Assembly (NCBI GenBank): GCA_948469315.1
Contig: CAOKLQ010000007.1
Location: 1 to 64,000, forward strand
DNA length: 64,000 bases
Reading direction: 5' to 3'
DNA from: an uncultured Clostridium sp.
GTDB taxonomy: Bacteria; Bacillota; Clostridia; TANB77; CAG-508
A program made the position numbers and the translations under genes. Positions 10,389 to 44,836 of this stretch are shown one piece after another. The notes under the pieces are model-generated. The model had not been told where the DNA came from. It saw only the letters and a program-made list of their open reading frames with translations, and did not search any database. Positions within the stretch are counted from its first letter, which is position 1. Each line of letters opens with the position of its first letter.

Positions 10389-10395
10389 TTTATTT

Positions 10396-10545
10396 ACAAA
10401 GTTATTATATTTTTTACGTAGTAACAATTCGCGGGGACCGACAAGTTACAAGATATAAAGATTAATAAATTCATACCTTAATTTATTAATCTTTTATAGA
10501 TTGTTCGCAGTTGGGAGTTACAAGTAAAACATATAATAACTTTGT
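10396..10545 (+). ncRNA. Structured intergenic element, copy 1
   Basis: A perfect 15-bp outer stem (10396-10410 with 10531-10545) and a perfect 15-bp inner stem (10457-10471 with 10480-10494) enclose two conserved single-strand-like blocks: GTAACAATTCGCGGGGACCG and, on the 3' side, GCAGTTGGGAGTTACAAG. The same blocks recur at 43961-44118, where both stems have different sequences but still pair perfectly. This is the covariation expected of a conserved RNA structure rather than of a terminal inverted repeat. Family not recognised. Confidence 0.7.
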
Positions 10546-10604
10546 AATATATATTTTTTATAAATATTACAACAATATTACAACAATATTATATTTTAAT
10601 AACA

Positions 10605-41740: not shown

Positions 41741-43940
41741 TTGGAAGAGATAGAAGGGCAGATAATAGAATTTATATATCAAAATGAACTAAATAGTTAT
41801 ACAATAGCAATATTAGAAACTAATGAAGATGAAATAACAGTAACTGGGTATCTTCCATTTATAAATGTTGGAGATACATTAAAATTAGTGGGAAAATATG
41901 TTATACATCAAGAATATGGTGAGCAATTTAAAATAGAAACATTTGAAAAATTAATGCCTAAAACTTTAGATGCAATTGAAAGGTATTTAGCAAATGGAAC
42001 TATAAAAGGAATAGGACCTGCTACTGCTAAAAAAATAGTAGCAACATTTGGGGAAGATACAATAAGTATATTTAAATTAGAGCCAGAAAAGCTTACTCAA
42101 ATAAAAGGAATTACGGAAGAAAAAGCCAAAGAAATGAGCAGAGAGTTTATAGAAAATTGGGAGCTATGGCAAATAGTAGGATTTTTAGAAAAGTTTGGAG
42201 TAGGCGTTTCAAGTGCAAAAAAGGTTTATAAAGAGCTTGGAAATTCCTCAATAGAAGAAATAGAAGCAAATCCATATTTATTAGTAGATATTATACAAAA
42301 TGTAGATTTTAGAAAAATAGACAAAATGGCTTTAGATATAGGCATATCAGCTGATAATAGTAAAAGAGTAAAAAGTGGAATAAAATATGCTTTAGGAAAA
42401 ATTTCTATTAATGGTCATTCTTGTGTGTTAAAACAAAACCTAGAAAAATATGTTACAGAACTTTTAGGTATTGATACAGGTTTTATTGAAGATAGTCTGA
42501 TAGAATTAAAAGTAAAAGATGAAATTTACATAGAAAACCGAGATGAAGAACAATGGATATATCTTAAATATTTTTATGATGCTGAAGTAAATATTGCCAA
42601 AAAAATAATACTTATGAATGAAGCAAAAAATATAAAAAAAATATCATCTTTTAAAAAAGAACTAGAAAAAGCACAAAAAAATATAGATATTGAACTATCT
42701 GAAAAACAAAAAGAAGCAATAAAACAAGTAAATGAAAACAATGTAACAATTATTACAGGAGGACCAGGTACAGGAAAAACAACAATAATAAAAACAATAA
42801 TAGATCTATACCAAACTCATGGCAAAAAAGTAGTACTTTGTGCTCCAACAGGAAGAGCTGCAAAAAGAATAACTGAAACCACAGGTCAGGAAGCAAAAAC
42901 TTTACATAGGCTTTTAGAAATAGGAAAGATAGAAGATGATGTTAAAAATGTAAATTATGATGTATCTCCAGTAGATGCAGATGTAATTGTAATTGATGAA
43001 ACATCAATGGTAGATATTTTTTTAATGAACTATCTAGTAAGAGGAATATATCAAGGAACAAAACTTGTGCTTGTAGGAGATGTAGACCAGCTTCCATCTG
43101 TAGGACCAGGAAATGTTTTAAAAGATATAATAGAATCAGGGCAAGTTCAAACTACACATTTAGATGAAATATTTAGACAAGCTGCAACAAGCAAAATAAC
43201 ATTAAATGCACATAAAGTAAATGAGGGACAAAATTTTATAAAACCTCAAGATAGTTCAGATTTAAAACAAGACTTTTTTTATATAAATGAAAGCAATCGG
43301 AGAAAAAATGCTAAGTGAAATAGTATCTTTATGTAAGGGAAGGCTGCAAAATTATGGAGATTACAATTTTTTTGAAAACATACAAGTTCTAACACCAACA
43401 AAAAAAGGAATACTTGGAACAAAAGAACTAAACAAAGTATTACAAGAGCAGTTAAATCCACAAATTTCAGGAAAAAGACAAAAAAAATCAGGAGAAATTA
43501 TTTTTAGAGAAGGCGACAGAGTAATGCAAACAAAAAATAATTATGATATGTACTGGGAAAAACAAGATGAAAATGGAACAGGAATATTTAATGGAGAACT
43601 TGGAAAAATTTTAAGAGTTAATGAAGAAGAAAAACAAATAAAAGTTGAATTTGATGATGGGAAAGTAGCATGGTATTTATACTCAGACTTAGAGCAATTA
43701 GAGCATGCATACGCAATTACAATACATAAATCCCAAGGAAGTGAATTTGATGTTGTAATAATAGTACTTCCACAAGCTTATTCAGGATTACTTACAAGAA
43801 ACCTATTATATACAAGTATAACAAGAGCAAAAAAACTTCTTATTGTAATAGGTGGTAATAGAACAATTAATTTTATGATAAATAATGATAATAATAAAAA
43901 TAGAAACACAGGGCTTAAATATAAATTACAGAATATTTAA
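41741..43940 (+). CDS. RecD2-like DNA helicase, +1 frame change at CGG
   Basis: A 5'-3' superfamily 1B helicase in genome maintenance. N-terminal OB and helix-hairpin-helix region (GTIKGIGPATAKKIVATFG), helicase core with GGPGTGKTT (near residue 346), APTGRAAKR, VIDETSMVD and GDVDQLPSVGPG, and the C-terminal UvrD-like part with AYAITIHKSQGSEFDVV and LLYTSITRAKK. At 43298-43300 the frame meets AAT-CGG-A; straight reading stops after 525 codons, before the essential C-terminal motifs. Skipping the C gives NESNGEKMLSEIVSL and the normal 732 residues. Starts at TTG 41741 behind AAAGAGGA. Confidence 0.92.
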
Positions 43941-43960: not shown

Positions 43961-44118
43961 TTAAATAGGTTAATATATTTTTTATGCAGTAACAATTCGG
44001 GGGGACCGACAAGCTACAATCTGTTAAAATACAAAAATTTAGACTTCAATTTTTGTATTTTAATATAGATTGTGTGCAGTTGGGAGTTACAAATAAAAAC
44101 ATATATTAACCTATTTAA
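43961..44118 (+). ncRNA. Structured intergenic element, copy 2
   Basis: A perfect 18-bp outer stem (43961-43978 with 44101-44118) and a perfect 16-bp inner stem (44024-44039 with 44048-44063). Between them are the conserved blocks GTAACAATTCGGGGGGACCG and GCAGTTGGGAGTTACAAA, almost identical to copy 1 at 10396-10545, although both stems differ in sequence. An extra pair ACAATCT/AGATTGT extends the inner stem. It fills the 242-base gap between recD2 and comF. Confidence 0.7.
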
Positions 44119-44182
44119 TATATATTTGACATATAAATTAATTTAATATATATTATAAACTATAGGGAGCAGAAAGGAACGT

Positions 44183-44836
44183 GTGTTGAGTTTTTTTGAG
44201 ATGCTCCTTAATTTTATTTATCCAAATAAATGTGGAATATGTGAGAAAATTTGTGATAATTTTTTATGTCCTAATTGCAAAAATAATATAGAAAAGCTAC
44301 AATTTAATAAATTAAAAAAATTTTTAATAAAACCTTTAGATGAGCATTTTTATATTTTTAAATATGAAGGAATAATTAGGAAAAAAATAATTGACTATAA
44401 ATTTAATGATAAAGCTTTCTTATCTGATTTTTTTACACAAATTATTTTAAAAAACAAAAAAGTATATTGTTTCATAAAAAAATATGATATAATCATTCCA
44501 GTTCCAGTACATAAAAAAAGAAAAGATCAAAGAGGATATAATCAAACAGAATTAATATCAAGGAAAATTGTGCAAAATATAGATGACTTAGAATATTTAA
44601 ATAACTGCTTAGTTAAAACAAAAAATACTAAACCACAAAGTAAATTAAAAGAAAATGATAGAAAACATAATTTGATTGGAGCATATAAAGTAAATAATGA
44701 TTTTAAGATAAAAAATAAAAAAATTCTACTTTTAGATGATGTATATACAACAGGAAGTACAGCAAATGAATGTAGTAAAGCTTTAAAAGAAGTGGGTGCT
44801 AAAAAAGTTGGAATTTTAACTATTGCAAAAGATTAA
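44183..44836 (+). CDS. comF: ComF-family phosphoribosyltransferase
   Basis: A 217-residue ComF-like protein. It has an N-terminal zinc ribbon (CGICEKICDNFLCPNC), FKYEGIIRKKIIDYKF, the IIPVPVHKKRKDQRGYNQTELI block, and the PRPP loop KILLLDDVYTTGSTANEC. ComF acts in DNA uptake with the ComFA helicase and in related DNA transactions; comFA is not in the window. The start is GTG (44183) or the following TTG, behind GGAGCAGAAAGGAAC. Confidence 0.9.
   Translation: MLSFFEMLLNFIYPNKCGICEKICDNFLCPNCKNNIEKLQFNKLKKFLIKPLDEHFYIFKYEGIIRKKIIDYKFNDKAFLSDFFTQIILKNKKVYCFIKKYDIIIPVPVHKKRKDQRGYNQTELISRKIVQNIDDLEYLNNCLVKTKNTKPQSKLKENDRKHNLIGAYKVNNDFKIKNKKILLLDDVYTTGSTANECSKALKEVGAKKVGILTIAKD

Follow-up and report, generated by a model that had tools for sequence, protein, structure and literature searches.

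Bacterial MITEs and small mobile repeats, including Correia/NEMIS, RUP, ERIC/RU-1 and YPAL/RU-2, have been reviewed, and transcribed RNA structure motifs have been described for them (PMC2229807). The hairpin motif studied here occurs twice in the window, that is, in the whole stretch of DNA analysed, 64,000 nucleotides from an uncultured Clostridium sp. (contig CAOKLQ010000007.1). Like these repeats, it is small and protein-less, carries inverted repeats and is dispersed between genes (PMC2229807). Unlike them, it keeps an asymmetric core while the sequence of its arms turns over with matched changes, the comparison at sequence level having been made through Rfam only. The family is short, encodes no protein, has many dispersed copies and leaves an empty orthologous site at copy 2. 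In kind, it belongs with the bacterial MITEs that carry RNA motifs, as a variant of them (PMC2229807); its novelty lies in the combination of a conserved asymmetric core and arms that change freely but are always paired, at a density of up to one copy per 13 kb. IStrons, which combine a group I intron with an insertion sequence, are similar in being a structured, possibly RNA-acting module on a DNA transposon (PMC4227781). The present element is far smaller than IStrons, is protein-less and has no group I intron match in Rfam.

The first-pass annotation could place the motif in no known family and named an Rfam scan among the checks. This judgement stands: Rfam 15 contains no family matching either window copy or the divergent homologues at gathering score, and an E-value scan of copy 1 returned matches below gathering scores only. 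The motif thus shares a conserved loop and covarying stems with the candidate structured RNAs of Rfam release 15, but matches none of them at gathering score. No description of the family was found in the open-access literature searched. It is a small mobile-element family of gut Clostridia, undescribed in the libraries searched here.

Two other hairpin systems were considered. Integron attC sites are bounded by RYYYAAC/GTTRRRY boxes and lie in cassette arrays; their structure is kept while the sequence varies, and the fold is read on one strand. The present motif resembles them in the preservation of structure over sequence, in the one-strand fold and in a superficial TAACAATTCG likeness. It differs in its GTAAC/GTTAC boxes, scattered single copies, long outer stems and target-site duplications, and the boxes together with the scattered single copies rule out an attC site. 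Hairpin elements of the IS200/IS605 type (REP/PATE) depend on a Y1 transposase and make no target-site duplication; they are ruled out by the 8-bp duplications found in relatives.

Copies in the window

The features of the two window copies are as follows.

10394..10547, + strand: copy 1, whole hairpin from outer arm to outer arm, with inverted arms; covariance model match 10399-10541, 123.3 bits; fold z -9.7
10394..10417, + strand: copy 1, 5′ arm of the outer stem; pairs with 10524-10547 over 24 nt, 96% complementary
10524..10547, + strand: copy 1, 3′ arm of the outer stem, partner of 10394-10417
10421..10442, + strand: copy 1, 5′ side of the core; GTAAC (pairs with GTTAC), loop AATTCGCGGGGA, CCGAC (pairs with GTTGG)
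10457..10494, + strand: copy 1, inner hairpin; arms 10457-10471/10480-10494, 15 nt, 100% complementary
10507..10523, + strand: copy 1, 3′ side of the core; GCA, GTTGG, GA, GTTAC, AA
43961..44118, + strand: copy 2, whole hairpin; outer arms 43961-43983/44096-44118, 23 nt, 96%; covariance model match 43967-44111, 132.6 bits; fold z -10.9
43989..44010, + strand: copy 2, 5′ side of the core; GTAAC, loop AATTCGGGGGGA, CCGAC
44024..44063, + strand: copy 2, inner hairpin; arms 44024-44039/44048-44063, 16 nt, 100% complementary
44076..44092, + strand: copy 2, 3′ side of the core; GCA, GTTGG, GA, GTTAC, AA
43941..44163, + strand: copy 2, approximate insertion unit of 223 nt; extra DNA relative to the congener G009, lying between the recD2 part's stop codon and the AGGGAGC that precedes comF

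Two conserved blocks had been reported as common to the copies, and both are present without a mismatch, block 1 at 10421-10441 and 43989-44009 and block 2 at 10507-10523 and 44076-44092; the means expected by chance from shuffled windows are 0.00 and 0.10 matches. The fold z values of the two copies were equalled in 0 of 200 shuffles. The stems, described earlier as perfectly paired, are as long as noted or longer (outer arms 24 and 23 nt, 96%; inner arms 15 and 16 nt, 100%). The same description held the stems of the two copies to be entirely different in sequence yet still pairing. The pairing is real and is accompanied by double-sided changes, but the stems are homologous sequences that have diverged (AAGTTATTATAT vs AGGTTAATATAT).

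Conserved core and fold

Across the family, the hairpin is built in layers. The outermost is an outer stem of 15-60 bp, variable in sequence, followed by a small asymmetric loop. The core is closed on the outside by GTAAC/GTTAC pairs (variants GCAAC/GTTGC and ATAAC/GTTAT) and on the inside by CCRAC/GTTGG (variants CCAGC/GCTGG and CCACC/GGTGG); between them lies an asymmetric internal loop, whose 5′ side reads AATTCGGGGGGA, also given as (A)ATTCGGGGGGA, and whose 3′ side is GA. Above CCRAC/GTTGG come a second loop, AARYT / KYGCA, and the inner hairpin, which is free in sequence and, depending on the copy, about 15 to 187 nt long. Double changes are also found inside the core stem itself (CCAGC/GCTGG, CCACC/GGTGG, GCAAC/GTTGC), and the asymmetric internal loop is kept across families with differing arms.

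Among the own-genome copies, the core is the most conserved part, with pairwise identities of 0.91-0.94 vs 0.69-0.77 in the arms; as block 1 served as the search key, the conservation of the core is inflated, block 2 and the covariance-model matches being less affected. The apical loop has an identity of 0.83 among the same copies and shows no conservation from one family to the next. Two genomes of the same family contain divergent homologues in which GGGGACCGAC and GTTGGG are retained, the arms being unrelated and the outer closing pairs different.

Distribution

The own genome contains 11 copies according to a pattern search and about 24 according to BLAST and the covariance model. With the covariance model, carrier Clostridia MAGs hold 1-120 copies each, the own genome being counted at 24; the greatest density is about 120 copies in a 1.6-Mb genome, or approximately one per 13 kb. 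A scan of 84,980 species genomes for block 1 yielded 107 stretches, which with few exceptions come from a dozen uncultured Clostridia MAGs; three of the matches (L069, L083 and L099) have no block 2 and look like chance matches. The distribution is patchy: among 391 genomes of the class, matches were limited to three, the own genome and two others of its family, block 2 was found in only 4 of 94 relatives searched, and it is absent from all 13 congeners. In viral contigs, the block 1 pattern scan gave no match; a terminal-repeat scan gave 102 stretches, which are likely due to chance.

Nearly all copies lie between ORFs, with mixed orientation to their neighbours by crude ORF calls (upstream/downstream orientations -/- 40, -/+ 24, +/+ 22 and +/- 15).

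Ends, target-site duplications and an empty site

In relatives, the arms of the element end in terminal inverted repeats, GTTACARTTCAC, with the same core inside; the length between the ends is about 180-345 bp, without a protein gene. In 39 relative copies with both ends, the 8-bp sequences flanking the element match at 0.75 vs 0.36 in shuffled pairings (z 15.7), and flank lengths other than 8 bp give z values of no more than 2.5. Examples of the target-site duplications are GCTAAATC (L061), ATTATAAT (L086) and GTAAAATG (L018). A few copies in one genome (L093, L110 and L112) possess a quite different end, AATGCTGTCAACTTAAG, with the inner part unchanged. Three derivatives (L188-L190) have only fragments of the core left, one of them (L189) being flanked by a perfect 8-bp repeat, AGATTTTC; the core seems not to be strictly needed for the ends to work.

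Copy 2 occupies the space between a recD2 part, whose stop is at 43940, and a comF-like gene at 44183; the two are 242 nt apart. In the nearest congener, G009, the sequences corresponding to window positions 43928 and 44152 are joined at adjacent bases in a BLAST alignment, so the copy 2 site is empty there. Where matches to recD2 and comF both extended across this junction (G009, L160 and L161), the spacing between the genes is about 30-80 nt. The copy 1 site of G009 is not cleanly empty and is occupied by another, terminator-like hairpin.

No terminal repeat or target-site duplication was recognised in the own-genome copies, including both window copies, by three methods with fixed and flexible offsets. 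Either their ends and duplications have decayed or the copies end at the stem; mobility in the own genome would follow from the relatives, the copy number and the one empty site.

A partner transposase of the IS256 or IS1595 type was sought. The IS1595 type gave 0 matches in eight genomes; IS256-type matches occur in two relatives only, one broken by stops and one partial, and the right ends were not found near them. No intact partner gene of either type was found. The stop-broken IS256-type gene L298 (G095:C38) is the sole such match in its genome.

Covariation and change of the arms

Covariation of the stems in further copies, a point set beforehand, is present. When 18 own-genome copies are aligned, both sides are changed in 22 of the 48 pairs, against a shuffled mean of 8.1 and with 0 of 500 shuffles as high; paired cells amount to 95.8% vs 88.1% in shuffles. 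When the partner is slid by 1-3 columns in the same alignment, only 42-48% of the cells are paired.

In the copies of the genome G095, double changes account for 76 cells vs 36 cells with single changes. Blocks of change identical in both arms were observed in several of these copies (L027, L037, L072, L084 and L110), a clustering that is partly made up of indels common to both arms and of the relatedness of the copies. According to published work, hairpin stems can be both generated and preserved by template switching (PMC8794818). Template switching across the palindrome is favoured here, because stepwise compensation does not readily give long blocks in both arms. Compensatory selection alone is doubtful, since the arms of the own copies (0.69-0.77) outrun the apical loop (0.83), although constraint on the loop may contribute to this difference.

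The kinds of mismatch carry a further signal. On the + strand, the inner stem has 38 G-U vs 15 A-C distinct wobble events (P = 0.002, a modest effect) and the outer stem a weaker trend of 50 vs 32 (P = 0.06), both P values being approximate, as the counting of events was done by genome group and no genome could be assigned to 30 copies. The 22 outer pairs next to the core have no wobble preference (8 G-U vs 10 A-C). An excess of G-U over A-C is what a folded + strand RNA, or single-stranded DNA, would give. We read most of the covariation as coming from templated copying, with some selection on the folded + strand. Stem covariation is the usual gold standard for RNA function, but it can arise at the DNA level where, as appears to be the case here, arms are rewritten as pairs. 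As the arms change in whole both-sided blocks, covariation alone is no proof of RNA-level selection in this family.

Proposed mechanism and rival explanations

The motif is most probably a copy of a non-autonomous, MITE-like mobile hairpin family with a conserved single-strand fold in its core. The mobile-element reading is based on the 8-bp duplications, the copy number, the patchiness, the empty copy 2 site and the mixed orientation. The first-pass annotation had reasoned that a transposon would keep its ends and that the pattern fitted an RNA shape instead. The RNA-like part of this argument is retained, given the covariation, the conserved asymmetric loop and the inner-stem G-U bias. Its exclusion of a transposon has to be abandoned: the hairpins of relatives lie inside terminal inverted repeats with 8-bp duplications, and the family is patchy and high-copy, with the copy 2 site empty in G009.

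A DDE transposase acting in trans would move the element by its outer ends. Replication across the palindrome would copy one arm onto the other by template switching, keeping the arms paired despite the turnover of their sequence, and selection for the fold may assist this pairing. The core would be kept as a working folded single + strand, most likely in RNA, where it might bind a protein or contribute to the processing or stability of an mRNA. Our best guess is a hairpin that a MITE carries and that, in RNA, binds a protein or takes part in processing; a role in recognition at the DNA level is given about the same likelihood. Should the core act as RNA, the family would be a mobile RNA module of which hundreds of variants occur naturally.

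Two rivals were weighed. One is a stand-alone structured RNA (aptamer, ribozyme or protein-binding), selected as such, with a transcribed + strand, compensatory covariation and the transposon ends as its vehicle. Stems covarying beyond shuffles, the preference for + strand G-U in the inner stem, the occurrence of one core with more than one kind of end (GTTACARTT, or AATGCTGTCAACTTAAG in L093, L110 and L112) and the retention of the core in own copies whose ends are past recognition all speak for it. The rarity of G-U (about 1-2% of pairs), its failure to outnumber A-C in the first 22 outer pairs, the blocks of change identical on both arms, the lack of a fixed gene orientation and the absence from congeners do not, and promoter- and terminator-like sites around both window copies are not above shuffles; this explanation is regarded as possible but rather unlikely. 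It can be extended to a new structured-RNA class, in which a purine-rich asymmetric loop on a hairpin of any sequence is the cargo of several transposon ends and is kept by post-insertion selection as a mobile aptamer- or ribozyme-like module, a proposal that we consider doubtful. The other rival is a purely DNA-level element, whose palindrome and bulge are a recognition structure (cruciform or folded single strand) for a transposase or recombinase, with no RNA involved. Near-perfect Watson-Crick arms without wobble preference next to the core, templated arm copying and target-site duplications are all compatible with it, whereas the strand-specific wobble bias of the inner stem and the existence of L188-L190, with core fragments only, argue against it; it is likewise regarded as possible but rather unlikely.

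It is very unlikely that the motif serves the neighbouring genes in cis as a terminator, an attenuator or a 3′ element stabilising their mRNA. Copies do lie close to gene ends and G009 holds a terminator-like hairpin at the copy 1 site, but the orientation to genes is mixed, which rules out a sense-orientation cis-regulator, scans of either window copy revealed no terminator-like site, and the element is absent from the orthologous sites of congeners. Short palindromes are common in an AT-rich genome, so chance similarity or an assembly artefact might be suspected; with 0.00 and 0.10 block matches expected from shuffles, as against 24 own copies and hundreds elsewhere, this has a negligible probability.

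Neighbouring features and related elements

The right flank of copy 2 (TTGACATATAAA... to 44163) resembles, by eye, the arm of CANQTZ copies at an equal distance from the end. Between the copy 2 hairpin and the comF-like gene, there is a promoter-like site close to the consensus at 44126-44154 (TTGACA, 17 nt, TATATT, 11 of 12). Judging by the same TTGACATATAAA stretch in the arms of CANQTZ elements, the element may bring a promoter with it. The recD2 gene upstream is split into overlapping ORFs, 41741-43318 (N-terminal OB/HHH/AAA) and 43287-43940 (C-terminal SH3/UvrD_C), which suggests a frameshift or an assembly error.

CANQTZ copies (L013, L019, L117 and others) have an inner hairpin of about 185 nt containing a further long palindrome, conserved and imperfect (TTTTTTCATAACTTTGTGTGTCGCAAC...), which may be a nested element. 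In the CANOYI copies L078 and L080, the hairpin is enclosed by a GTCCCCACTGGTTCCGGG...GGGGAC repeat present in inverted copies, which may be another set of ends. Core-less palindromic elements with the same GTTACAATTCACAG ends (L176-L183) are found beside core-bearing ones in the same genomes. They may mean that the core inserts into ready-made palindrome centres, but short direct repeats at the junctions allow L176-L183 to be deletion products.
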